Positions 14,048-25,485 of a stretch of DNA of 64,000 nucleotides are shown in pieces. Each line of letters begins with the position of its first letter. Position 1 is the first letter of the stretch. The notes under the pieces were generated by a model, which was not told the DNA's origin, did no database searches, and was given only the letters and a program-made list of their open reading frames with translations. Location of the stretch: the NCBI RefSeq assembly GCF_003627795.1, contig NZ_CP032687.1:496001-560000 (forward strand), read 5' to 3'. This DNA comes from Rhizobium sp. CCGE531. Its GTDB lineage: Bacteria; Pseudomonadota; Alphaproteobacteria; Rhizobiales; Rhizobiaceae. A program made the position numbers and the translations under genes.

Positions 14048-15451
14048 TTAAAGTTTGTGTTTAATAGCCTGGCTGAGGCGCTTTGCGCCCTCAACAAGAG
14101 TGGTGGGGCGGCCTGCGAAAGTTAGCCGCAGGAAAGAGCCTTCTGGGTCGGCAGGAAACCATGGGCGACCAGCGCCAATGATAACGCCGTTCCGGGCCAG
14201 GTCTGCAGCGAGTGCGACATCGCAGACCCGATCCGGCAAGCGTAGCCAAAGGTGCATGCCTCCGGTCGGGACATCGAACGTCACGCAGTCCCCAACTTCC
14301 TCGCGCAGCACCCCGACGAGGACATCGCGCCGCTCGATTAGGGCAGCGCGGGCGGCCTTGAGATGACGCTTCCATCCTGGCGCGGACACAACGGCCAAAG
14401 CCGCCGCTTGCAAGGGACCGGAAACAAAAAAGTCTTGACTTCCGCGGGCCACCTTCAGCCGTGCAAGGGCCGCTCCCCTTGCGATAACGGCTGCGACCCT
14501 CAAACCGGGTGCAGCTGATTTGGCAAGGGACCGAATATAAATAACGTGTCCGTGGCGATCAGTCGTCGCGAGCGGAGCCGGTGCATTGCCTGCCAGATCG
14601 AGATCCCGCGCCCAGTCGTCCTCGATGATGAAGGCGCGCGCCTTTGCCGCGATGTCGAGGACAGCAGCTCGCCGCTCGTTCGACATCACGACGCCCGAAG
14701 GATTGGAGAAGGTTGGCTGGCTGTAAAAGACCCGGGCCCCCGTCTGTTGGAAGGCGTCCTCCAGCAGTTCCGGTCGCACCCCGTTTTCGTCAATGGCTAC
14801 GGGAATCACTTCAAGGCCCGCCGCCCGGGCAGCCGAAATGGCGCCAGTGTAGGTCGGCGTCTCCACAAGAATTGGACGTCCAGGCGGCACGAGTGCCCGC
14901 AGGGTCGCAGTGATCGCCGCCTGTCCGCCGTTGCATATGATGACATCGTGGGGCGAGAACACGGCGCCGTTTCCGATCTCGCGCGCGAACCACGCCCGCA
15001 ATGACTGAAGACCCTCGATCGGCAGTCTATCCCAAAGATCGACACGACCTGCGGCTCGACGGAGCGCGTGTGCCAAAAGGCCAGACGCCTGTAGATCAGG
15101 CGGCAGGTAGCCCATGCTCAAGATCAGGCCGTCGGCTGGTGGAAGTGTCAATGAAGTTTCCAAAAAACCACCGTCTCCGCGCGCAGCTCCAAGCGCGACA
15201 GATTGCCAAGATAGGTCGACAACCTCGGCGGGACTTGCGGGCCCTTCGCGAACGAAGGTTCCTTGGCCTGGGCGAGGCTCGATCAGTCCCTCGCTGACGA
15301 GTTGGGCAAATGCTCGCTCCACCGTGGCTGGACTGACATGGAATTCCTTCATGAGAGAACGCACCGAAGGCAGTCGAAGCCCAGGCTTTGCCGAGGCTAT
15401 CTCCCTGCGCAGCGATTGTGTAACGGTCAAGAGTCTGTTATCTACTTTCAT
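14048..15451 (-). CDS. MocR-type regulator (GntR winged helix fused to an aminotransferase-like domain)
   Basis: A 467-aa MocR/PdxR-type regulator. Residues 1-70 form a GntR winged helix (LRLPSVRSLMKEFHVSPATVERAF, then LIEPRPGQGTFV). The rest is a fold-type I aminotransferase domain, with SQPTFSNPSGVVMS, IIEDDWARDLDL and the probable PLP lysine in RSLAKSAAPGLR. The start at 15451 lies inside an inverted repeat; upstream in-frame codons up to 15514 are an alternative. It diverges from the MFS gene and so probably controls that exporter and the operon behind it. The ligand is unknown; MocR proteins often sense amino compounds or PLP. Confidence 0.9.
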   Translation of the reverse strand: MKVDNRLLTVTQSLRREIASAKPGLRLPSVRSLMKEFHVSPATVERAFAQLVSEGLIEPRPGQGTFVREGPASPAEVVDLSWQSVALGAARGDGGFLETSLTLPPADGLILSMGYLPPDLQASGLLAHALRRAAGRVDLWDRLPIEGLQSLRAWFAREIGNGAVFSPHDVIICNGGQAAITATLRALVPPGRPILVETPTYTGAISAARAAGLEVIPVAIDENGVRPELLEDAFQQTGARVFYSQPTFSNPSGVVMSNERRAAVLDIAAKARAFIIEDDWARDLDLAGNAPAPLATTDRHGHVIYIRSLAKSAAPGLRVAAVIARGAALARLKVARGSQDFFVSGPLQAAALAVVSAPGWKRHLKAARAALIERRDVLVGVLREEVGDCVTFDVPTGGMHLWLRLPDRVCDVALAADLARNGVIIGAGRPWFPADPEGSFLRLTFAGRPTTLVEGAKRLSQAIKHKL

Positions 15452-15467
15452 GAGAAAGATAGATAAC
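15437..15467. promoter_or_regulatory. Inverted repeat between the MocR and MFS genes, likely operator
   Basis: GTTATCTA (15437-15444) and TAGATAAC (15460-15467) are perfect 8-bp arms 15 bp apart; inside them CTTTC and GAAAG also pair. The whole element spans 31 bp, is AT-rich and overlaps the MocR start codon. Its place in the divergent region suggests that MocR binds it and controls both directions, including its own gene. This role is inferred. Confidence 0.55.
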
Positions 15468-15512: not shown

Positions 15513-16709
15513 ATGGCCGAAACGAACCAGAAGCTGCTTGATTGGTTGCCCGCGAGCGTTCTGGTGCCCTATCTCATTACCGCCATTGCACTCGCCCTTG
15601 CCTATGGTTCAAGCTTTCTGCTTGTCGACGCAATGCAATTCGCAGGCTTTCAGGCATCTGCCGCCGGAGGCATCGTCAGTGCTGGAATCATAGCGACCCT
15701 GATCGGTGCTATATTCGCGGGGCGGCTGGCGGAATATACAGGTATCTTGCCCCTCATTGCCGTCTCTTCTCTTGTCATGGCGGCCGCGATGACCAGCTTT
15801 GCACTGGTCGGAACTGGCGGTCTGGCGTTTGCCTATGCCGGCGGCGTTCTGCTCGGTTTTGGTTGGGCGGTCTTTTACACGCTCGCTCCAATCCAGCTCA
15901 TTGATCGCCTCAAACCTTCCGCCCGCTTGGAAGCTCTGACTCTCCTTTCAGGATCCCAAATGCTCGGCATCGGCGGATCAGCTCCGCTGGGTCACTTCAT
16001 TGCTGACCAGATCGGCAATCCCAGCGCCGCGTACGCATTTTATGCCGTCTTCTGCGTGGTAGCTGCGGTATTCGCTATGTTCGTACAGACACGTTTGAAG
16101 CGTCAGCCGCAACTTTCCGCACGCGCCGTTGCTCTCTCCGTCCCAACGAGCCTGTCCATTTTACGCGGGAAAACGGTGTTGCCGGTGATCATGATGGGAA
16201 TTGGTGCTTGTATTTTCGCTGGTCTGTCCACGTTTCAAAGCATATATGCCGCCTCGCGAGGACTTTCACCCAATGTCTTCTTTCTGACATTCACTGTTAC
16301 GACGGTCGCATTGCGGTTTTCGCTCGCCTCGATGATCGGTAAATTGCCGCTCGCTCGCCTGGCGCTCGCTCTCTTCGTAACAACACTAATTGGGATCGGA
16401 CTTCTGGTTTTGAACTCGGGAAGCGCGCTGTTGTACGTCTTCGCCAGCGTTCTCTTTGCAGTAGGCTACGGCCTCACCTATTCCACCTTGAATGCCATGG
16501 TGGTGAACCTCGCTAGCGAGCGAGGTCTCTCGATCTCCGTCGCCTCTCAAGTCTTCGCGCTCGCTTATTTCGTCGGATCGTTCGGCTTCCCGTATTTCGG
16601 CGGCCTATTAATTGCAGCACATGGCATCGATGTTGCAATGCTCGCAATGGCAGGGCTGGTCGCTATCAACATCGCTATCATCAGCCAGACACTTCGCAGG
16701 CCGATGTAG
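15513..16709 (+). CDS. MFS transporter, likely exporter for the downstream biosynthetic operon
   Basis: A 398-aa major facilitator with about twelve hydrophobic segments; the first runs from SVLVPYLITAIALALAYGSSF. The loop after the second helix (GRLAEYTG) has the basic/acidic pattern of the MFS A-motif. I chose ATG at 15513 (MAETNQKLLDW); a GTG at 15501 and an ATG at 15450 are other in-frame starts. It is the first plus-strand gene of the cluster, 83 bp before the monooxygenase gene. The position suggests export of the small product made by the next genes or self-protection. The substrate is unknown. Confidence 0.9.
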   Translation: MAETNQKLLDWLPASVLVPYLITAIALALAYGSSFLLVDAMQFAGFQASAAGGIVSAGIIATLIGAIFAGRLAEYTGILPLIAVSSLVMAAAMTSFALVGTGGLAFAYAGGVLLGFGWAVFYTLAPIQLIDRLKPSARLEALTLLSGSQMLGIGGSAPLGHFIADQIGNPSAAYAFYAVFCVVAAVFAMFVQTRLKRQPQLSARAVALSVPTSLSILRGKTVLPVIMMGIGACIFAGLSTFQSIYAASRGLSPNVFFLTFTVTTVALRFSLASMIGKLPLARLALALFVTTLIGIGLLVLNSGSALLYVFASVLFAVGYGLTYSTLNAMVVNLASERGLSISVASQVFALAYFVGSFGFPYFGGLLIAAHGIDVAMLAMAGLVAINIAIISQTLRRPM

Positions 16710-16792: not shown

Positions 16793-18037
16793 ATGGAAAT
16801 TCTGGACCTAATCGGTATTGGGATCGGACCCTTCAATCTTAGTCTTGCTGCACTGGCGCACCCGACGCGCCTGCGCACGATTTTTTTCGAAAAAGAATGC
16901 AGCTTCGTGTGGCATCCAGGACTGCTGCTGCCCAATAGTCGCCTGCAGGTATCTCCGCTGAAGGACTGCGTGACGCTTGCAGATCCCACTAGTCCATTTT
17001 CTTTCCTCAACTATCTTGCAATGCATGGACGACTTTACAATTTCCTGAACCGGCGCGACGCAAAGACGTCACGCAGTGAGTTCACACACTATTTCCAGTG
17101 GGTTGCACATCACTTGCCCAGCCTTCGGTTTGGCGAGGAAGTGACCGACATCGCCAAATTCGACAAGGGTTACCGCGTGACGACGACGCGAGATGACTAT
17201 CATGCCCGCGCGGTTGCGATCGGCGTCGGTGTCGTTCCGAACATCCCCGAATGCGCCAAACCTTGGCTGGGCGATAAGGTCTATCATGTGGCGAGCTATC
17301 TAGATCAGTCACCAATTGGTGTGGGTGAACGCGTAATGGTTGTTGGCGGCGGCCAGAGCGGTGCGGAGGTCGTCGAACACCTGTTGGGCAATCCTGATGT
17401 GCGTAAGATCATATGGGTGACGTCACGTGCGAACCTGTTCACGAGGGATGACAGCGCTTTCGTCAACATGTCGTACACGCCATCTTATAGCCAGCGCTTT
17501 CATTCGCTGCCACTTCAAGAACGTCGGGCTATCGTCGATGACGAATTACTCACCAGTGACGGCATTTCAGCCGAATTGTGCAACCGCATCTATGAAATTA
17601 GCTATCATCGTAGCGCGAGTGGCTATAGTGACGAGATCATTCAACTGCTGCCCGCACTCGTTATGAAGGAGTTGTCTCCTCATCCACATGGTTGGCAAGC
17701 GCTGTTGGCTCCCCGTGGCGCGCCTTTGCGAACAGTAGAAGCCGATCGTATCGTACTTGCCACCGGTTTTCAGCCTCGCTCGCTTCCGTTCATCGATCGC
17801 CTATTGGCTTCCGCCGTCATCGAAGATGACCTGCCGGTCGTAGATGAAGATTACGCCGTTCAATTCAAGGATAGTGCTCCAGGCCAGGTTTATCTGCAGA
17901 GCCGGACGCGCGTCCAAAACGGCTTGCAGAGTGTGAATTTGTCACTCGTAGCGTACCGAAATAGCCGCATCGTCAATAGACTGCTCGGGCGTGATCATTA
18001 TGCGAACGTCCCAGATCGGCAGATCTTCGGGGTCTAG
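16793..18037 (+). CDS. FAD/NADPH-dependent lysine or ornithine N-monooxygenase
   Basis: A 414-aa class B flavin N-hydroxylase of the IucD/PvdA/SidA family. Visible are the FAD motif GIGIGPFNLSLAAL at residues 8-21, FVWHPGLLLPNSRLQVSPLKD and LADPTSPFSFLNYL of the family core, the NADPH motif VMVVGGGQSGAEVVEHL, and ATGFQP near the C-terminus. These enzymes hydroxylate the side-chain amine of lysine or ornithine. No siderophore synthetase follows; instead a cupin and a MetRS-like gene do, so a role in supplying N-hydroxy-amino acid for N-N bond formation is more likely than siderophore synthesis. Start at 16793 with AGGAAAGA ahead. Confidence 0.93.
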   Translation: MEILDLIGIGIGPFNLSLAALAHPTRLRTIFFEKECSFVWHPGLLLPNSRLQVSPLKDCVTLADPTSPFSFLNYLAMHGRLYNFLNRRDAKTSRSEFTHYFQWVAHHLPSLRFGEEVTDIAKFDKGYRVTTTRDDYHARAVAIGVGVVPNIPECAKPWLGDKVYHVASYLDQSPIGVGERVMVVGGGQSGAEVVEHLLGNPDVRKIIWVTSRANLFTRDDSAFVNMSYTPSYSQRFHSLPLQERRAIVDDELLTSDGISAELCNRIYEISYHRSASGYSDEIIQLLPALVMKELSPHPHGWQALLAPRGAPLRTVEADRIVLATGFQPRSLPFIDRLLASAVIEDDLPVVDEDYAVQFKDSAPGQVYLQSRTRVQNGLQSVNLSLVAYRNSRIVNRLLGRDHYANVPDRQIFGV

Positions 18038-18211
18038 AATGGCAACATGCAAGAACAAAAGGATCGATAATTCTCCGCAAAAGCAATGCAGCTCGCCAAA
18101 CAGCACCGTGCACAAGGACAAACGGGCGACATTTCCATGAACCGGCAAACTGCCTTCTCAACCGGGGCAGCTTTTTCAGGCAGATCAATTCTGATGAGGA
18201 GAGACTTACCC

Positions 18212-18991
18212 ATGTTAACCGAAGCACAAAAAGCAACATGGCATAAAACTGGATACCTCAAGTTAGAGGAATTTTTCGACCAGGAAAGTCGTGACCGTCT
18301 CTCAACTCTTGTCGAAGATATTTCGTGCTGGGAGATAAGCGACGACAAATGGTTGATGTGGTTCGAAAAAACGACGGACAACAAAAAAATAATTTCCAAG
18401 GTCGAGAACTTCCTCGAATTCAATGCCCCTCTGCGTGACCTGATCCTGGCTGACCACCGTATCGAGTCAATCGTCGAGTCCTTGTTGGAGGAAGATGCCC
18501 GGATGCTCAAAGAGCTGCTGATCTTCAAATATCCCGATAGTGGCGGCTATCGCCCGCATCAGGACATCTACCATGTCCCTCATAAGCTGCCAGACCGGAT
18601 GGTCCATGCAATTGTTGCAATCGGCATCGACGATTCCGGCCCAGACAATGGAGGGCTTTTCTTCAGCCCCGCCAATCACAAGAAGGGTGTATTTCCGATG
18701 GATGCCGGCGGTGTGATTTACCCCGACATCGTCGAAACGTTCGCCTGGGAGCCGGTGTCATGGAAGGCCGGCGACATCTTTATCTTTGACGATTATGCGC
18801 CGCATTATTCGAAACCTAATAAAAGTGAAAATTCCCGGAGGGTAATTTACTTGGTGTTCCAGCGCGCTTCCACCGGGGGCCCAACGCGGGCCGAGTACAA
18901 CAAACTCAAGCGCGCCTACAATCCTCCCGAGGGCAAGGTCTCCAACATCGATGAACTCAAGCCGCCGAACGGCATTTTCTATCGCGAGTGA
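18212..18991 (+). CDS. PhyH-type Fe(II)/2-oxoglutarate dioxygenase
   Basis: A 259-aa phytanoyl-CoA-dioxygenase-like enzyme. The iron ligands are H116 and D118 (YRPHQDIYH) and H198 (DYAPHYS), and R210 (SRRVIYLVF) fits the 2-oxoglutarate anchor. The start at 18212 has AGGAGA 10 bp ahead; the frame stays open for 42 more codons upstream. It lies inside the operon, 21 bp before the cupin gene. Members hydroxylate, desaturate or halogenate small molecules and amino acids, so it may tailor the hydroxylated amino acid or the hydrazine product. I know of no fixed role for PhyH enzymes in described hydrazine pathways. Codon use is AT-richer than in the transfer genes. Confidence 0.88.
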   Translation: MLTEAQKATWHKTGYLKLEEFFDQESRDRLSTLVEDISCWEISDDKWLMWFEKTTDNKKIISKVENFLEFNAPLRDLILADHRIESIVESLLEEDARMLKELLIFKYPDSGGYRPHQDIYHVPHKLPDRMVHAIVAIGIDDSGPDNGGLFFSPANHKKGVFPMDAGGVIYPDIVETFAWEPVSWKAGDIFIFDDYAPHYSKPNKSENSRRVIYLVFQRASTGGPTRAEYNKLKRAYNPPEGKVSNIDELKPPNGIFYRE

Positions 18992-19012
18992 AGCACCGCG
19001 TGGGAGGCAAAC

Positions 19013-19342
19013 ATGTATACGAAACAGATCGACGGCTCAATCATGCGCCCGGAGTTTGGCGTTCTGGTGTGCCGATTGCTTGAACATCTGCCGCAGACGG
19101 TCGCAACGGGCTTCGGGACTTCGATTGTGGAGGTGGTGGCGAACGGTGCAGTCGATCTTCATTCGCACCCAGAGCACGAACTTTGGGTACTGATCTCGGG
19201 CAGTGGCGTGTTCGAAGCCGACGGCGAAACCACGGCGGTCGGCGAGAACACGTTGCTCTACATAAGGCCACACCAAACGCACGCGATCAAAAATAGCGAC
19301 CCTGAAACCAGTCTGAAGTTCTTTTCGATATGGTGGGATTGA
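19013..19342 (+). CDS. Stand-alone cupin, predicted N-N-bond-forming half of a split hydrazine synthetase
   Basis: A 109-aa single-domain cupin. The first motif DLHSHPEHELWVL gives metal ligands H50, H52 and E56, and the second motif RPHQTHAI gives H90 (and H87). GGAGG lies six bases before the ATG. One base separates its stop from the start of the MetRS-like gene, so the two are almost fused. In the described hydrazine synthetases (Spb40 of s56-p1, Tri28 of triacsin) a cupin and a MetRS-like domain share one chain; the cupin part rearranges the aminoacyl ester of an N-hydroxy-amino acid into the hydrazine. This protein fits that role as a separate subunit. Confidence 0.85.
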   Translation: MYTKQIDGSIMRPEFGVLVCRLLEHLPQTVATGFGTSIVEVVANGAVDLHSHPEHELWVLISGSGVFEADGETTAVGENTLLYIRPHQTHAIKNSDPETSLKFFSIWWD

Positions 19343-19343
19343 A

Positions 19344-20933
19344 TTGAGCGTAAAGCAAAAAACTTACTTTGCCTGCTCGGCGCCCCCATGCCCGAATGGA
19401 AAGCTGCACCTTGGGCATATTGGAGGGGTGTACCTGCTAACAGACGTGTTCATACGCTTTCAGCGAATGGTAGGGAATGCGGCCTATCACGTAACAGGTG
19501 CTGATGAACATGGCACTTATACGCTGTTGAAAGCCCGCAAGCTTGGCAGGCCAGTTGATGACGTTGCACAAATGCACATTGATGAAATCCTGCGTTGTCT
19601 GCGGGTAGTAGATATTGAGCCGGACGTATTTGTCAGGACTTCAAGCGAAGACCACAAAGAGCGAAGTCTCGCAATCTACGACCAACTAAGAGCCTTAGGC
19701 TACATCGAGCTGCGGGACGCAGAGCAATTGTATTGCGAAACGTGCGGAGAGTTCGCAGCAGACTCACTTGCGATCGGGCGGTGCCCGGCTTGCAATGCGG
19801 AAACAGATAGTAACCTTTGCGAAGATTGCGGCCTCGCGCTGCAGCACAATCTACTACGCAATCCCATCCACACCGTATGCGGATGCAGCCTTGTTTTACG
19901 ACCGATCCGCCAGGCCCATTTTGACCTCAAGAAATTTGCTCCCGCACTTGATGACGCCATTGAGGCCAGCAGATGGCCGGAGACCATAAAATGCAAAGAA
20001 CGCGACTGGTTACGGACAAAATTGCGGTCATTGCCAATGTCGCGGCATTTCGATCGTGGTGTGACGTTGAGCTCCCCGGCAGATGTGGCAGGTCAAACTC
20101 TGCTGACGTGGTTTGAAGGATTGTGGTGCTACGAGACAGGAATCGAACGCATCTGCAAGCAAAGTGGTGCAGATCTTGACGACACTTTGCGTGACCCGAA
20201 TACGAAACTCGTATTCTTCATGGGCCAGGATAACCGATTTTATTATACGATCGGCGTCACTGCTGGTTTGTTCGCACGTGGTTACGCGATCCCACACAAT
20301 CATGCGATCCAGGACTTTTATAAACTCGAAAGCGCAAAATTTTCTACTGGCCGCGATCATGCTTTGTGGGCTGACGAGGTGGCGGCAGACATCGACACGA
20401 ACGTGCTGCGCTATTATTTGGCCAGCATTGCAAAGCCATTTGGCAGAAACGACAACGATTTTCTGATCGAGGGGCTGGTTCAGGCGGAGGTGCGCATTCA
20501 TGCTTTCGAAACCGTTTTGCGCCGACACGCTGGATGTAACGAGACGCTGAGGGTCGACAAACTCACGCGCGAGCAGATCCACAATGCTAAACGGTATTGC
20601 GAAGCCATGGAGGACACGCGCGTTTGGGATGCTCTAAATGCGTTGAACGCTTTTTTCGACGCTGCGAGTTTTTCAAAGACAGGTACCTTGGTCAGCGCAA
20701 CGGAAATTTCGGTATTCCTGAGCCTTCTTTATCCGGTGACCCCGACACTTGCGGCTCGCTATGGTGCTTGCTTTTTCGGACTCGGATGGCGACCCCGGCT
20801 CTATGACGAAGCTATTCAGCCAAGTGCAGGCTCACGTGAAGCGATTGATTTCACCCGATTTGCCCGCCCGATTCCGGCCGCCTTTATAGCAGCCTACCAA
20901 AAACGATTTAGGCAACCACAGACGAAGGCGTGA
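19344..20933 (+). CDS. Methionyl-tRNA-synthetase-like protein, predicted amino-acid-activating half of a hydrazine synthetase
   Basis: A 529-aa paralogue of MetRS without a house-keeping context. The HIGH motif is HLGHIGG (residues 22-28), followed by VTGADEHGTYTLL. A zinc knuckle insert has cysteines at 131/134, 147/150 and 159/162. Where MetRS has KMSKS this protein reads KFSTG (332-336), so the second ATP motif has changed. The C-terminal helical part is shorter than a full anticodon-binding domain. It starts with TTG one base after the cupin stop, so the two products should be made in equal amounts. Predicted role: activation of an amino acid (glycine in known cases) and its transfer to the hydroxylamine oxygen. 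Confidence 0.87.
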   Translation: MSVKQKTYFACSAPPCPNGKLHLGHIGGVYLLTDVFIRFQRMVGNAAYHVTGADEHGTYTLLKARKLGRPVDDVAQMHIDEILRCLRVVDIEPDVFVRTSSEDHKERSLAIYDQLRALGYIELRDAEQLYCETCGEFAADSLAIGRCPACNAETDSNLCEDCGLALQHNLLRNPIHTVCGCSLVLRPIRQAHFDLKKFAPALDDAIEASRWPETIKCKERDWLRTKLRSLPMSRHFDRGVTLSSPADVAGQTLLTWFEGLWCYETGIERICKQSGADLDDTLRDPNTKLVFFMGQDNRFYYTIGVTAGLFARGYAIPHNHAIQDFYKLESAKFSTGRDHALWADEVAADIDTNVLRYYLASIAKPFGRNDNDFLIEGLVQAEVRIHAFETVLRRHAGCNETLRVDKLTREQIHNAKRYCEAMEDTRVWDALNALNAFFDAASFSKTGTLVSATEISVFLSLLYPVTPTLAARYGACFFGLGWRPRLYDEAIQPSAGSREAIDFTRFARPIPAAFIAAYQKRFRQPQTKA

Positions 20934-21073
20934 CTTCCTGCCTACCGCAGCGAGATCTGCACGGCTTTAAACATAGTCGGTTGTTCATTGACGATGTCAA
21001 AACCACGAATGCTTTTGTCCGCTTCACACTGTTGCGCGTTCCGGCGAACGGTTTTGATACGCAGGTGGAGACT

Positions 21074-22534
21074 TCAATTGTTTAGCGTCGATCGGATTGG
21101 CGTCCTTCGCGTTCCTATGGAGCGAATCTGCCTTATTCGCTGCATAATCCTTTCCGCCTGATCAACAATTTCGGGCACCGAGGTAAGTTCACCGAACGTC
21201 CCCCGGGCCAATGGGCCGGCAATGAACAGGTCATCGACGGGTGTCCCGTCCCGTGCTAAGGCGCGATTCTCGCGATCGCATTTGATGCCGAGACCATGCG
21301 GATCCTTTGTGATCAAAGCGGCGCGCTCGAGGTCCAACAAACAGGCCTGGCTGCCGATTACATTCTCATGATCGGGGCCGGTTGCGAGAATCAGCCACTG
21401 TGCGCGGTCCTTCTCTATATTGCCATGCGGCGTAGTTGCGACGTCGACTAAAATGTCTCGGCTGCCGCATTCGGCGGAAACTATTCTTCCCGCACGAATG
21501 TGGAGGCGACCAGCTGCTGTCTCGCGGGCGACGAGTTCCTTGATTTGAGGTGGCATCCGGAAGCGGTGGATGTCGTACCATCTACGAAGATGGCGCAAGA
21601 AACACCGTTGCTCCTCGAGCGGCAGCGCCTGCCATATTGCCTGCCCCTGATGCCGCAGCGCATCGAAAACGATCTGCCAGGGCAATCTTTTTTCCGTTAC
21701 GTCGCTGATAGCCAATCGAACCTGTCGCAGAAGGCAAAGCGCCGTCTTAGGAACGCGTTTTAGCAAGTCATCACCGTCTAGCGTGAAGCTGCCCGTCGCG
21801 TGGGGCCGCGGCAGACGTCCTGAACGCGACAATAAAGTGATCTCTCCACTATGACCGCGAGCGCGCAAGGTTGCTAGCACGTCAAGTGCGGTCAATCCGG
21901 CACCGATGATCCATATATTGTCCCTTTGCTGGATCTTTTGAAAAGCGCCAGAGGTAGAGGGATTTGAGACAAAACGTGGATGAAATTGCAGCGCAGAAGC
22001 AAATTGTGCTGGCGTCCTTGGTGGCGGATGACCGGTAGCAACAACGACGATGTCGGCGTGAAGGATCGTCCCGGCATTTCCTTCGATTCGCCAGCGGCCA
22101 TTCTGTCGATGAATGCGCTCGACACGCTCGCACGCATGTATGATGCTGCCATTTTCGAGAAGCGGCCGCATCTCATTGTCCATGAAGTCCGCAAAATCAC
22201 CTCTCCGTGCATAGATTGCTCCCTCTGTTCCAGCCTCCGGATCTCGCCCAGCACGACCGGTTTCACAAAACCAGCGGGCGAACCTCTGCGGGTCTCCGGG
22301 TATTGCCCGCATCCGGTGGGCGGCAACGTTTAAGCGAAGTGACGGATCATTTGTGTCGTAGGCAACGCCGGCACCAAGGCGCGACCTTGGCTCGAAGACC
22401 ACAATCTCATCAGGCTCGAACAGGCCTGAGAGTGCGAGCAAGCGACTTATCGTCGCCCCACTGAACCCGCCTCCGACAATGGCCACCCGGCTCACGGTAG
22501 TCAACGAAGGCGACGGTTCTTGTGAGGACTGCAT
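21074..22534 (-). CDS. FAD/NAD(P)-binding protein of the COG4529 (YdhS-like) family
   Basis: A flavoprotein of about 486 aa. RVAIVGGGFSGATISRLL is the N-terminal FAD motif, VVFEPRSRLGAGVAY is the COG4529 hallmark, and IWIIGAGLTALDVLATL is a second dinucleotide-binding motif. The C-terminal FIAGPLARGTFGELTSVPEI is typical of the family. The start is uncertain: ATG at 22534 is used here, and an upstream ATG at 22588 is possible. It converges on the MetRS-like gene. Family members are poorly understood NAD(P)H-dependent oxidoreductases or monooxygenase-like proteins, so a part in the hydrazine pathway is possible but not shown. Confidence 0.85.
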   Translation of the reverse strand: MQSSQEPSPSLTTVSRVAIVGGGFSGATISRLLALSGLFEPDEIVVFEPRSRLGAGVAYDTNDPSLRLNVAAHRMRAIPGDPQRFARWFCETGRAGRDPEAGTEGAIYARRGDFADFMDNEMRPLLENGSIIHACERVERIHRQNGRWRIEGNAGTILHADIVVVATGHPPPRTPAQFASALQFHPRFVSNPSTSGAFQKIQQRDNIWIIGAGLTALDVLATLRARGHSGEITLLSRSGRLPRPHATGSFTLDGDDLLKRVPKTALCLLRQVRLAISDVTEKRLPWQIVFDALRHQGQAIWQALPLEEQRCFLRHLRRWYDIHRFRMPPQIKELVARETAAGRLHIRAGRIVSAECGSRDILVDVATTPHGNIEKDRAQWLILATGPDHENVIGSQACLLDLERAALITKDPHGLGIKCDRENRALARDGTPVDDLFIAGPLARGTFGELTSVPEIVDQAERIMQRIRQIRSIGTRRTPIRSTLNN

Positions 22535-22805
22535 TGGTTTCAATAAACCTAACTCCCTTCGGCTAACAGTGGCTGAAACAATGCACACTTATTTTATAGA
22601 TTCAATCCATAAATATGTTGTCCCGGGTCCGGCATTTACCTCGAGCGCCGTGAGCACAATCTTGGGGTCGAGACTTAATTGGGTTCACAATGAGATCGCC
22701 ACGGCGAGACAGACGCCCGATAGGGAGATGTCCGCTGTCGTGGCGATGCGTTGGAGATCCTTGAGCCGCGCTCTACCGCCTGACGAGAGCTGACACGGAA
22801 GAGAA

Positions 22806-23102
22806 TCAAGCGGCAAAGTTGCGGCTGTATCGAAAGCTCTCCATCAGCGGGGCAAAGGCTTCAACGGCGAAAGCGGTCAAAACGCGGCCAATCCCAGGGG
22901 TGGTCCGCACGCGTCGCGCCGTATCGGCTTCCGCTACCAGCGCCTTGATCTTCCGGCTGGGATTGATGCGGATCCTCTTCTCGGCAATCTGCTCCACCAA
23001 ATCACGGCACTCCTCGCGCTCAAATCGGGCAACACGGTTCAGTGCATTCAGGATATCTTTAATCCCGTTGAGCTGACGATTTCCTTGTGAAACAATATCC
23101 GC
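22806..23102 (-). mobile_element. Remnant of an IS110-family transposase
   Basis: A minus-strand frame of about 98 codons ends with TTPGIGRVLTAFAVEAF and ESFRYSRNFAA, which is the helix-hairpin-helix part (TxPGIG...F.SGRxFAAWLG) of IS110/IS116/IS902 transposases. It stops at the FAA position, before the conserved catalytic C-terminal end, and no N-terminal DEDD domain is present. No terminal repeats were found, as expected for this family. A dead fragment. Confidence 0.7.
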
Positions 23103-23105
23103 ATA

Positions 23106-23546
23106 CTAGATGCAGTGGACGACATCGCGCGCCACCATTTCCTCATAGGCAGGAAGCAGGGCGGCAAGCGCAGCCCTCTCAATAGCCGAGTTCACCGGCC
23201 ACCAAACGGTATAGCGCCTTTCTACCTTAGCGCTTGGCGCGTAGACCCCTAGGATCCCTTCTGCATGCTTAACCAAATGGACACCGCTCACCCTCAATCC
23301 AAGGTCAGGCAACCATATGTCACCCACGGCTAGGATTTCATAGCTGTGGCTACCATTGTCTCTCCATTTTCGAATGTACAAAACTTCAGCTTTCATACCG
23401 GCTATTCCATCTGCGACAATGCAGGATCGCTGCGGGCAATGTGCGTGCTTGTTTTCTGAAACTCCCATACGGACAGCCTTCATTTCGCGGATTTGACATG
23501 CTGTTCGCCATCCGTCATCGGCTTTCACAGCAGCTCGCGCTGACAT
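23106..23546 (-). CDS. Hypothetical protein
   Basis: An open frame of 146 codons that I do not recognise. A shorter form starting at 23396 (MKAEVLYIRKWRDNG, 96 aa) looks more protein-like, with a mixed beta-type pattern (EILAVGDIWLPDLGLRVSGVHLV) and a C-terminal helix (AIERAALAALLPAYEEMVARDVV). It lies directly upstream of the IS110 remnant on the same strand. It may itself be a leftover of a plasmid gene. Confidence 0.4.
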   Translation of the reverse strand: MSARAAVKADDGWRTACQIREMKAVRMGVSENKHAHCPQRSCIVADGIAGMKAEVLYIRKWRDNGSHSYEILAVGDIWLPDLGLRVSGVHLVKHAEGILGVYAPSAKVERRYTVWWPVNSAIERAALAALLPAYEEMVARDVVHCI

Positions 23547-23825
23547 TCATCTCGCCACGGCCGAAAACTTGGATCCTGTTCTGACTTCCACGAGAGCGGA
23601 CCGCGACGAACTTGTCGACGTTGAGGTTTGCACTGCCGCCCGTCGGCCATGCATGGCTAACTCGTCGGATGGGCCGCCAGACATTAGCGAGAATAGCGGC
23701 AGGATCTCCGCGCAGGGATAAGGGGTTCACCCGTGGTCCCCACGCAATTCGGGTCGCTTTGTGCCCACTCGTTCGAGCTTATTGTAGGATCCCGTTGAGG
23801 TCTCACCGCAGCTGCGAAGCCCCAC

Positions 23826-24464
23826 TCATATCCGTTTGAACTTGGCATCAAGGCTCCACGCTCCCGGACCGGCCAAGACCAGGTAGAGGAACACGAAGCA
23901 AAACAGGATCGCTGCATCGCCGCCGTTAAGCACGGGAAAAATGCTGTGGCCTGGTAAATGTATGATCCAATAGGCGACGGCCATTTGACCTGACAAAAGA
24001 AAGGCTACCGGTCTCGTCAGGACGCCAACAAGAATAGCCAGGCCGCCGATCACCTCCAGAAGACCCGCAGTCAACATGAAGGGTGACAAACCACCCAAAC
24101 CTCCTGTTCCGACGAGGCCGCCTGAAGGGAAGCTAAATAGCTTCATGGTGCCATGTTCGATGAATAGTAGCGCGGTAACGATCCTCAGCACGGCAAGTGC
24201 CGTCTGCGCGTATTTCGAAACATCCTTCAAAGCAGTCTCCAGTTTTCCGTTTGTCTCGTCGAAAAGGCCTAATCGACTGGAATTCGCATTAGATTCCGCC
24301 GTGGCCGTTAACACGGACCAGGGCGGATCATTCCTCGCAAATATCGTGCCATAGGAACTGCCCGGAAGCGTACGATGGTTACCGTGCAGGAGGGATAGGG
24401 ATTCTGGGTGCGAAATCGTGGCAAACGATTCTGAAGCTTCACAGGAGCGGCTGACGCGCCCCAC
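23826..24464 (-). CDS. DoxX family membrane protein
   Basis: A DoxX/TQO-subunit-like membrane protein. The core from about residue 85 onward has four hydrophobic helices: LRIVTALLFIEHGTMKLF, FMLTAGLLEVIGGLAILVGVLTR, PVAFLLSGQMAVAYW and DAAILFCFVFLYLVLAGPG. The family is linked to quinone-type redox reactions or detoxification in the membrane, but individual roles are unclear. The first 70 or so residues look unlike the family, and no internal ATG lies before the core, so the true start is probably a GTG or TTG within 24240-24320. It stands alone. Confidence 0.8.
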   Translation of the reverse strand: MGRVSRSCEASESFATISHPESLSLLHGNHRTLPGSSYGTIFARNDPPWSVLTATAESNANSSRLGLFDETNGKLETALKDVSKYAQTALAVLRIVTALLFIEHGTMKLFSFPSGGLVGTGGLGGLSPFMLTAGLLEVIGGLAILVGVLTRPVAFLLSGQMAVAYWIIHLPGHSIFPVLNGGDAAILFCFVFLYLVLAGPGAWSLDAKFKRI

Positions 24465-24606
24465 CTTTCAAATAGCACTGACACACTATTCATGCAGGAC
24501 GGCTTGAAGGTCACTGCTTCTTTCTTCTTAATTCAGCCGCGCGACGATTGTAGAAGGCAAGGATTGCCCGTCTGACGATTCTGAAGGTTTTAAGGTAACA
24601 ACATTC

Positions 24607-25485
24607 ATGCATGATGCTGTCGTTATTCGTTCCGGTATTTCACAGGCAGTTGTCAACCGAAAAGGAGCAGAGCTAGTTGGGTGGCGGGTCGGTGCAAACG
24701 ACCTCCTTTGGTCCCGGCGCCCTCCAGGTTGGAACCAAGCTTGTCCCCTGATGTTTCCTTCATGCGGATGGAGTGAGGCTTCGCTTGTCGAAATAAAAGG
24801 GCAACTTTATCCGATGCCCGTTCACGGCTTCATCAGCATGCAGGAATTTGACGTGGTTTCCATCTCCAAAAGCGAGGTGACATTAGAAACATCTGACGAT
24901 GAATTCACGAAAACGATGTTTCCATTTTGTTTTATTTTCAGGATTACGTATAAAATTTCAGATAGTGAGCTGAACGTCGATATTTCCGTAAAAAACAGCT
25001 CCCGTAGTGAACTCCTCCCTTATGCGATCGGAATACATCCGGGATTTAGATGGCCCTTACTGTCTGCCCGGAAAGATACCTGGCGGCTGGAATTCGAGAA
25101 ATTGGAATCCCCTCTCGTCCCATGCATATCTTCCGAAGGTCTAATTCGAAGTATTCAACGGAAAATTTCATTTCACGGGCGGTACCTTCATCTAAATGAG
25201 AGCCTTTTCCAAAATGAAGCCCTTTGTTTTTTGAATGCAAACAGTAAACGTCTGTCGCTGGTTGGGGAAAAGGCCTCCATTACAATTGAGGCGCCAAATG
25301 CACGTCACTGGGTCGTATGGTCTCTTCCACAGCAAGACTTCCTCGCGTTAGAACCATGTACAGGTCATGGTGACATGGAGGGTAGACGCATTCCATTCGA
25401 AGAGCGGGATTATAATGTCAACCTCGCCCCAGGAGAGGAGCAAATATTTCGAGTACGATTTGAGTTTGCGCAGCACGAAGATTAG
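24607..25485 (+). CDS. Aldose 1-epimerase-like protein (LacX type)
   Basis: A 292-aa protein of the galactose mutarotase fold. PLMFPSCGWSEASL, MPVHGFISMQEF, GIHPGFRWPL and the late ALEPCTGHGD give the LacX-type aldose epimerase pattern with its active-site histidines (VHGF and GIHPGF) and the acidic residue after ALEP. It would interconvert alpha and beta sugar anomers. The codons are AT-richer than in most of the window (for example TTTTGTTTTATTTTC), which suggests recent gain. No sugar genes lie nearby. The start is the ATG at 24607; the closest purine-rich stretch is AAGGTAACA. Confidence 0.85.
   Translation: MHDAVVIRSGISQAVVNRKGAELVGWRVGANDLLWSRRPPGWNQACPLMFPSCGWSEASLVEIKGQLYPMPVHGFISMQEFDVVSISKSEVTLETSDDEFTKTMFPFCFIFRITYKISDSELNVDISVKNSSRSELLPYAIGIHPGFRWPLLSARKDTWRLEFEKLESPLVPCISSEGLIRSIQRKISFHGRYLHLNESLFQNEALCFLNANSKRLSLVGEKASITIEAPNARHWVVWSLPQQDFLALEPCTGHGDMEGRRIPFEERDYNVNLAPGEEQIFRVRFEFAQHED

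Follow-up and report, generated by a model that had tools for sequence, protein, structure and literature searches.

Which product is made by an operon that unites a flavin-dependent N-hydroxylase, a stand-alone cupin and a protein resembling methionyl-tRNA synthetase (MetRS) in Rhizobium sp. CCGE531? The operon lies within a stretch of 64,000 nucleotides, here called the window (C4:496001-560000 of the 7.14-Mb genome), and its genes follow each other in the order: N-hydroxylase, PhyH dioxygenase, cupin and MetRS-like protein, with an MFS exporter gene ahead and a divergent MocR regulator gene (Table 1). A preliminary description of this DNA placed the hydroxylase, cupin and MetRS-like genes in one operon, grouped the other three with them and proposed a hydrazine pathway. 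The reading frames and Pfam families agree with the first point, and the other three genes have been found beside them, all six occurring together in Rhizobium sp. CB3090 and Mesorhizobium amorphae as well. The hydrazine interpretation is supported by the ligands and homology of the cupin, the motifs and clade of the MetRS-like protein, the amino-acid-type pocket of the hydroxylase and the position of PhyH beside fused synthetases in related bacteria. We read the locus, which is carried by a rhizobial symbiotic plasmid, as an operon for a split hydrazine synthetase with a proposed five-step pathway, and assign to this reading a probability of about 0.78.

The joint presence of an N-hydroxylase, a cupin and a MetRS-like protein is the feature shared with the hydrazine synthetase family (Spb40, Tri28, PyrN and the split pair with RHS1). 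RHS1 of Rhodococcus jostii (PDB 5UQP) is likewise a stand-alone cupin that is paired with a stand-alone MetRS-like protein. The window cupin carries the metal-site residues H50-x-H52-x3-E56 and H90, at the same numbers as the PyrN ligands His50, His52, Glu56 and His90, of which Glu56 is essential, as the E56A exchange kills activity (excerpts of PMC8664883). A cupin devoid of these ligands had been named in advance as an argument against hydrazine formation; all four are kept, the essential Glu included. The HxHxxxE motif is present in all relative cupins compared, except the half cupins of four loci described below. A profile of 88 cupin domains from fused synthetases, the Mesorhizobium group left out, was scanned against 7709 open reading frames (ORFs) of the loci and the window. 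It matches the window cupin in full length (positions 2-100, E 5.5e-13), and its 87 matches at E 1e-3 comprise 50 fused-synthetase frames, 35 operon-type cupins and two 747-aa frames. The latter, found in Mesorhizobium sp. YC-39 and M. amorphae, are second cupin-MetRS-like frames with 25% identity to P0033, and the split operon is present in both genomes too. In a PDB search the window cupin retrieves RHS1, a stand-alone cupin of the same kind, at E 1.7e-6.

The MetRS-like protein has been modelled with AlphaFold2 at high confidence (pLDDT 92.9, pTM 0.93), and its best folds are the MetRS structures 1rqg and 1pfu, followed by 9l8v (TM 0.80), the C-terminal domain of PyrN with glutamyl-sulfamoyl-adenosine. 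The motifs PPxPNGxLHLGH, DNxFY and KFST[SG]RxH are common to the MetRS-like and fused synthetases with few exceptions, and K332 aligns with the ATP-motif Lys of PyrN KFSTGR (K458 by chain length). In all 11 rows of its clade A12, P13, P14, C15, W253, G256, L257, N297, Y301, G304, V305 and KFST[SG]RxH are invariant, and pocket variation is limited to Y/F at 260, S/T at 302 and P/S at 16. All 12 canonical MetRS rows have Y15 and H301 in place of C15 and Y301; apart from P0036 they lack the His that ends the KMSKS-type loop, with KFSTSRNW of P. abyssi as a near exception. At position 301 PyrN carries Arg, and T12, T15, M256 and H301 are seen in two of the three fused rows from the rhizobial group. 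The pocket is therefore conserved within the clade and unlike that of PyrN and the fused rows, pointing to a single amino-acid substrate for the split clade; an eight-residue pocket code for synthetases is attributed to Matsuda 2024 in excerpts of PMC11705231. In a quick, unrooted tree of 59 rows the split, canonical and fused-plus-other rows separate, with the 11 split rows forming one side of a starred branch. Clustering with ordinary or antibiotic-resistant MetRS, which would have spoken against the hydrazine proposal, is thus not seen: the protein stands in its own clade, with a different pocket from that of the known hydrazine synthetases as well. P0027, a stand-alone protein of the MetRS-like type that is named for Leptospira borgpetersenii, neighbours this clade on a long branch. 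Of the Escherichia rows in a 60-row plasmid sample, most are plasmids sized about 100-120 kb that carry an annotated metG gene; in total, 189 Escherichia records matched.

The proposed pathway begins with the flavin N-hydroxylase, which, judging by its family and binding residues, would turn lysine or a shorter relative into the omega-N-hydroxy form. The MetRS-like protein would then activate an amino acid with ATP and esterify it onto the N-hydroxyl without any tRNA, and the zinc cupin would rearrange the unstable ester into an N-N bonded dipeptide, both by homology with PyrN and RHS1. These three steps follow the mechanism described for PyrN and RHS1 in the available parts of PMC8664883. In the fourth step, suggested by gene neighbourhoods, PhyH may hydroxylate a carbon beside the hydrazine nitrogen, thereby breaking the C-N bond and releasing a small hydrazino acid; PhyH would in this way replace the flavin oxidase of known pathways. 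Finally, the MFS protein may export the product, and the MocR protein, bearing pyridoxal phosphate (PLP), may control the operon; a hydrazine reacting with this PLP could be the signal that it senses.

Table 1. Features of the hydrazine synthetase-like operon in the window
Feature	Position	Strand	Family or remark
MocR-type (GntR + aminotransferase-fold) PLP-binding regulator	14048..15451	-	PF00392 + PF00155; likely start at 15451, ORF opens at 15514
Palindrome GTTATCTA-N15-TAGATAAC	15437..15467	none	spans the MocR start in the MocR/MFS divergent stretch
MFS transporter, likely product exporter	15513..16709	+	PF07690
Flavin-dependent lysine/ornithine-type N-hydroxylase	16793..18037	+	PF13434, 337 bits; ORF from 16766
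PhyH-family Fe(II)/2-oxoglutarate dioxygenase	18212..18991	+	PF05721
Stand-alone zinc-type cupin	19013..19342	+	PF07883 (Cupin_2), E 2.4e-11
MetRS-like amino-acid activating enzyme	19344..20933	+	PF09334 (tRNA-synt_1g), 234 bits; TTG start

The cupin stop and the TTG start of the MetRS-like gene are separated by one base. Between the window and CB3090, dN/dS is 0.06-0.21 for the six genes (0.149 for MocR).

The fourth step is the one in which the operon departs from the described pathways, which use a flavin oxidase (Spb39) or a saccharopine-dehydrogenase homologue (PyrL) where the window operon has a PhyH dioxygenase. The best NCBIfam model of this protein is methylphosphonate hydroxylase, at 172 bits and below the cut-off of 500. 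H116, D118 and H198, which we take to be the iron ligands, are among the invariant columns of 24 sequences. In the AlphaFold2 model (pLDDT 85, weak at the C-terminus) the nearest folds are AviO1, proline hydroxylase H11, EctD, EvdMO1 and leucine hydroxylase GriE. The gene is present in five of 394 genomes sampled from the family, the window's own included, and in 31 of 146 genomes of the genus of M. amorphae, where 27 copies are of full length and without stops. Two of these 27 genomes (G771, G772) carry the split operon, and 16-kb regions were read for 20 of the other 25; PhyH is intact in all 20 by choice, because they were picked among full-length-PhyH genomes. A fused cupin-MetRS synthetase adjoins PhyH in all 20 regions (broken in L090 and L092), and a hydroxylase does so in 19 (missing from L078, broken in L093). 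Mesorhizobium sp. L-8-3, so named by its synthetase, has a hydroxylase, a short flavin adenine dinucleotide (FAD) protein, PhyH (76%) and a fused 666-aa cupin-MetRS. This Mesorhizobium symbiosis-island operon, in genomes with nodA, shares the PhyH lineage (74-78% identity) and the upstream hydroxylase with the window operon; it differs in the fused synthetase, whose MetRS part is about 29-31% identical to the window protein, and in the hydroxylase, mostly 35-38% identical.

Remnants in the Mesorhizobium regions suggest how PhyH reached its position. Complete operons of hydroxylase, 352-353-aa oxidase and fused synthetase occur on Sinorhizobium meliloti pSmeSM11b, with a non-ribosomal peptide synthetase (NRPS), and on R. 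rhizogenes pColt5.8b. The short FAD protein of locus L040 (240 aa) matches about the first 100 residues only of these oxidases (28-31%; E 3e-7 and 3e-6). Among the 20 regions this protein is in one piece in nine, in two pieces in four, partial in two and unmatched at E 1e-8 in five; the oxidase-like gene is thereby absent or broken in 11 and reduced to an N-terminal remnant in the other nine. A C-terminal oxidase piece (within residues 295-352) stands beside the synthetase in three genomes (L063, L074, L065/L092), with PhyH on its other side in L092 and L063. Since oxidase remnants flank PhyH where visible, it seems to have landed in Mesorhizobium inside the gene of the flavin oxidase, the hydrazine-cleaving enzyme of known pathways, and displaced it. 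The split and fused lineages, with MetRS parts about 29% identical, are served by the same PhyH, and in M. albiziae PhyH, cupin and MetRS-like genes of the split type are combined with a hydroxylase and an oxidase remnant that belong to the Mesorhizobium type. This shared PhyH is the strongest indirect support that the split pair does the same job as the fused enzyme.

It is quite possible that PhyH instead hydroxylates an amino-acid precursor or the product, since enzymes that hydroxylate free proline, leucine and ectoine are close to it in fold. Against this, PhyH takes the place of the cleaving oxidase in Mesorhizobium, with oxidase remnants on both sides where visible, which argues for cleavage of the hydrazine. 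The pSmeSM11b cluster, azaserine-like in appearance, resembles the window operon in having hydroxylase and then synthetase on a conjugative rhizobial plasmid; it differs by a complete flavin oxidase, a 769-aa synthetase and the NRPS, with no PhyH annotated in the stretch read, and it also has AMP-binding and carrier genes. The pColt5.8b operon is another rhizobial plasmid set of N-hydroxylase, flavin oxidase and fused synthetase.

The grouping of the six genes recurs in other bacteria, wholly or in part. Protein identity is 91-96% in CB3090 (MFS 94%, MocR 92%) and 72-79% in M. amorphae (MFS 74%, MocR 77%), with MocR in the same place of the operon. Hydroxylase, MFS, PhyH, cupin and MetRS-like genes at 45-72% occur in Ralstonia pickettii, one Bradyrhizobium (L029) and Pseudomonas fuscovaginae, where the hydroxylase precedes the MFS gene and the MFS proteins are 45-48% identical. 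As the set recurs in all these bacteria, the grouping is not due to chance. A second Bradyrhizobium (L026) has only partial matches to hydroxylase and PhyH, and in M. albiziae MFS and MocR are unmatched. When 7998 candidates were scored, 61 matches to the MetRS-like protein were obtained, 25 of them, besides itself, at 45% identity or more. Plasmid records covering at least 80% of it number 37 (36 from Rhizobium, one from M. amorphae). The gene is present in 19 of 148 genomes of the window's genus, its own included (two split in two pieces, one a fragment), and in four of 397 genomes sampled evenly across the order, all from this genus. In Ralstonia the clade is found in two of 16 genomes; 13 of the other 14 have a 27-31% match only and one has none. 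Ral1-Ral2 of Ralstonia solanacearum CFBP2957 is listed as a tested synthetase in excerpts of PMC11705231.

Several points weigh against a functional hydrazine synthetase operon. The hydrazine product and the enzyme activities are predictions from the genes, and the role of PhyH is proposed only from gene position. In the PDB search dimethylsulfoniopropionate (DMSP)-lyase cupins outscore RHS1 (2e-7 vs 1.7e-6), so this search alone is not decisive for the cupin. True MetRS scores slightly above the PyrN domain (1rqg 154 bits vs 144), and 1rqg and 1pfu outrank 9l8v as folds; with scores so close, motifs and tree, not overall score, separate synthetase from MetRS. The split clade is not nested within the fused synthetases, for which reason the synthetase activity of the MetRS-like protein is only predicted, and an independent origin with other chemistry is conceivable. 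The hydroxylase has Ser at one of the four ornithine-binding sites. In 17 Rhizobium loci at 76-79% the operon shows partial decay, and in 11 of them the MFS gene is left with only 148-153 of 398 residues. L005, L007, L016 and L019 retain 48 of 109 cupin residues and give no hydroxylase or PhyH match in the stretch covered. The hydroxylase is partial in L018 and has a stop in L011, and the MetRS-like gene is broken in L030 and L031; L004-L006 are too short for judging the front of the operon. PhyH is partial or broken in four of the 31 Mesorhizobium genomes (G788, G812, G848, G862). In L007 (R. etli CFN42) transposase-like frames, judged by eye, stand immediately ahead of the half cupin.

The position of the split clade outside the fused synthetases would also suit a MetRS-like protein and cupin that esterify or amidate an N-hydroxy-amino acid but stop short of the N-N bond, so that the metabolite would be of the hydroxamate or ester type; an amide of this kind is formed as a shunt product when the cupin of PyrN is inactive, according to excerpts of PMC8664883. 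We consider this outcome improbable, since the cupin has the essential Glu and is under purifying selection, and the same PhyH lineage adjoins fused synthetases.

For the hydroxylase the best NCBIfam model, histamine N-monooxygenase, reaches 256 bits, below its cut-off of 700, and the nearest solved structures are 6xbb, 5o8p, 9nns, 7us3 and 3s5w. In SidA ornithine is held by K107, N293, N323 and S469, whose equivalents are missing from DesB (excerpts of PMC8009421). At these sites, mapped by eye through PvdA in HMMER alignments, the window hydroxylase has Lys, Asn, Ser and Ser, in this order, and so keeps three of the four. As the backbone-binding Lys, Asn and Ser are retained, an amino acid of the lysine or ornithine type is expected as substrate rather than a diamine. 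A diamine N-hydroxylase such as DesB or FbsI has been rejected as the identity of this protein, the carboxylate-binding Lys/Asn/Ser set being retained, not lost. That the hydroxylase feeds a hydroxamate siderophore, its neighbours being incidental, is very unlikely: its family is mostly known from siderophores and the nearest solved structure is a desferrioxamine enzyme, but it retains the carboxylate-binding Lys that DesB lacks, the set of hydroxylase, PhyH, cupin and MetRS-like genes recurs in five genera, and the 25 Pfam families listed, out of 64 for 37 window ORFs, include no siderophore synthetase, acyltransferase or NRPS. Least probable of all is a spare or drug-resistant methionyl-tRNA synthetase, an identity that we rejected despite the MetRS fold, the conserved zinc-knuckle Cys and a best NCBIfam model of methionine--tRNA ligase (249 bits, cut-off 587), because Pro, Cys and KFSTGR replace the canonical Leu and Tyr of the HIGH region and KMSKS, Y301 replaces the pocket His, and the gene lies outside the MetRS clade and is linked to cupin and hydroxylase. 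An ordinary KMSKS MetRS is encoded on contig C1 of the genome, and a second MetRS paralogue with a KIGKS loop is present at G000:C3:625183-625611.

The replicon had been described as a conjugative plasmid. The window does encode a TraG-type coupling protein and a MobA/MobL relaxase, and 42 of 43 related Rhizobium plasmids are typed conjugative; the M. amorphae plasmid with the split operon is typed non-mobilizable. The designation has been corrected to symbiotic plasmid, since the contig of the operon carries three nodA copies, the nearest about 0.28 Mb away, and four nitrogenase-family genes at 0.29 Mb. On plasmids of R. etli CFN42, Rhizobium sp. Pop5 and R. etli CIAT 652 the MetRS-like gene lies between nodA and nodD2. 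The G+C content of the operon is 52.7% vs 58.5% for the window. In the genus of M. amorphae, nodA is present in 31 of 31 genomes with PhyH and in 70 of 115 without it (Fisher p 3.6e-6, relatedness of genomes not corrected). The nearest PhyH-nodA pair on one contig is about 50-220 kb apart in fused-type genomes and about 420 kb on the M. amorphae plasmid.

A palindrome across the MocR start is a probable MocR operator. Both arms are perfect in the window and CB3090; in M. amorphae (L009) the exact match is limited to the left arm, and in L022 neither arm is exact, although the position aligns. In place of MocR control, the Mesorhizobium operon is preceded by a NifA/sigma-54 promoter. The test pattern was the NifA upstream activator sequence (UAS) TGT-N10-ACA followed by TGGCA-N7-TGC at 40-150 nt, for which simulation gives a chance expectation of about 0.003 pairs per 20 kb, a value resting on very few events. 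The pair, with a spacing of 58-62 nt, is found upstream of the operon in 19 of 21 fused-synthetase loci (missing in L081 and L092; in L078 it precedes PhyH), and also at the hybrid operon of M. albiziae. No such pair is present in the 64-kb window, in CB3090 or in loci L007, L010 and L011, and simple NifA, sigma-54 and nod-box-like patterns near the window operon are limited to three isolated TGT-N10-ACA and one sigma-54-like match, all intracoding; NifA control of the window operon is therefore not claimed.

In the Mesorhizobium operon the promoter can be connected with published data, seen in excerpts of PMC3538637. The motif TGGCACGTTCGATGC, identical in 14 of 21 fused-synthetase loci, is that of msi280, an 'L-lysine 6-monooxygenase' of M. 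loti R7A, in Table 1 of Sullivan 2013. According to the same excerpts msi280 is nodule-expressed and NifA2-dependent (activity of msi280::lacZ in Miller units: R7A 371.6, strain lacking nifA1 268.9, strain lacking nifA2 7.3), and a strain with an insertion in the gene is given a '+' for symbiosis. The table also contains promoters of acdS, msi276 and msi281, which are found again in many of these Mesorhizobium regions and so support the assignment; the fused-synthetase operon is probably msi280 with its following genes. It thus seems that a related gene set of other rhizobia is expressed in root nodules. Q8KGM6 of M. japonicum R7A, listed in excerpts of PMC11705231 among the synthetases from Zhao 2021 as tested, is a candidate for the same fused synthetase. 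Because this enzyme has been tested by others, and stand-alone cupin and MetRS-like pairs are known from RHS1, the N-N chemistry itself is known, which qualifies the undescribed pathway suggested in the preliminary description; what looks new is the split lineage, together with the PhyH variant and the link to nodules. Among the matches listed from open-access literature, no link between nodule-expressed msi280 and the tested synthetase is visible.

Three lines are hereby joined: a tested Mesorhizobium synthetase, a NifA-dependent nodule lysine hydroxylase gene of unassigned purpose, and the plasmid operon. Together they suggest that hydrazines may be produced by nitrogen-fixing symbionts living with the plant, and a reactive hydrazine may be an overlooked component of the legume-rhizobium partnership. 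Hydrazino acids inhibit PLP enzymes, and rhizobitoxine blocks ethylene synthesis. As a tentative and rather unlikely extension, production of a small hydrazino acid might be a symbiosis trait of rhizobia from several genera, with two distant synthetase lineages sharing the PhyH finishing enzyme that displaced the oxidase; released in nodules or at the root, the product would inhibit plant PLP enzymes and be sensed by the PLP-bound MocR. If this were true, a carbonyl- and PLP-reactive product would act on the plant much as rhizobitoxine does on ethylene synthesis. A further gain is a lineage of synthetases whose amino-acid pocket is still unread, along with what may be a new route of hydrazine cleavage.

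Two neighbouring genes deserve mention. A divergent FAD/NAD(P)-binding oxidoreductase gene (NAD_binding_9; window:21074-22588) stands right after the operon and is probably not a member, because it is unmatched in the other operon loci compared. A gene of the PLP aminotransferase fold, sought in the window at 20931-24700 with no credible match (best E 0.02), lies directly 3' of the MetRS-like gene in M. amorphae (L009:13610-14737), Ralstonia (L024:11591-12763), Pseudomonas (L027:11598-12734) and Bradyrhizobium (L029:8416-9603). Its products are 56-72% identical between genera and may represent a further pathway enzyme or a hydrazine-tolerant target.

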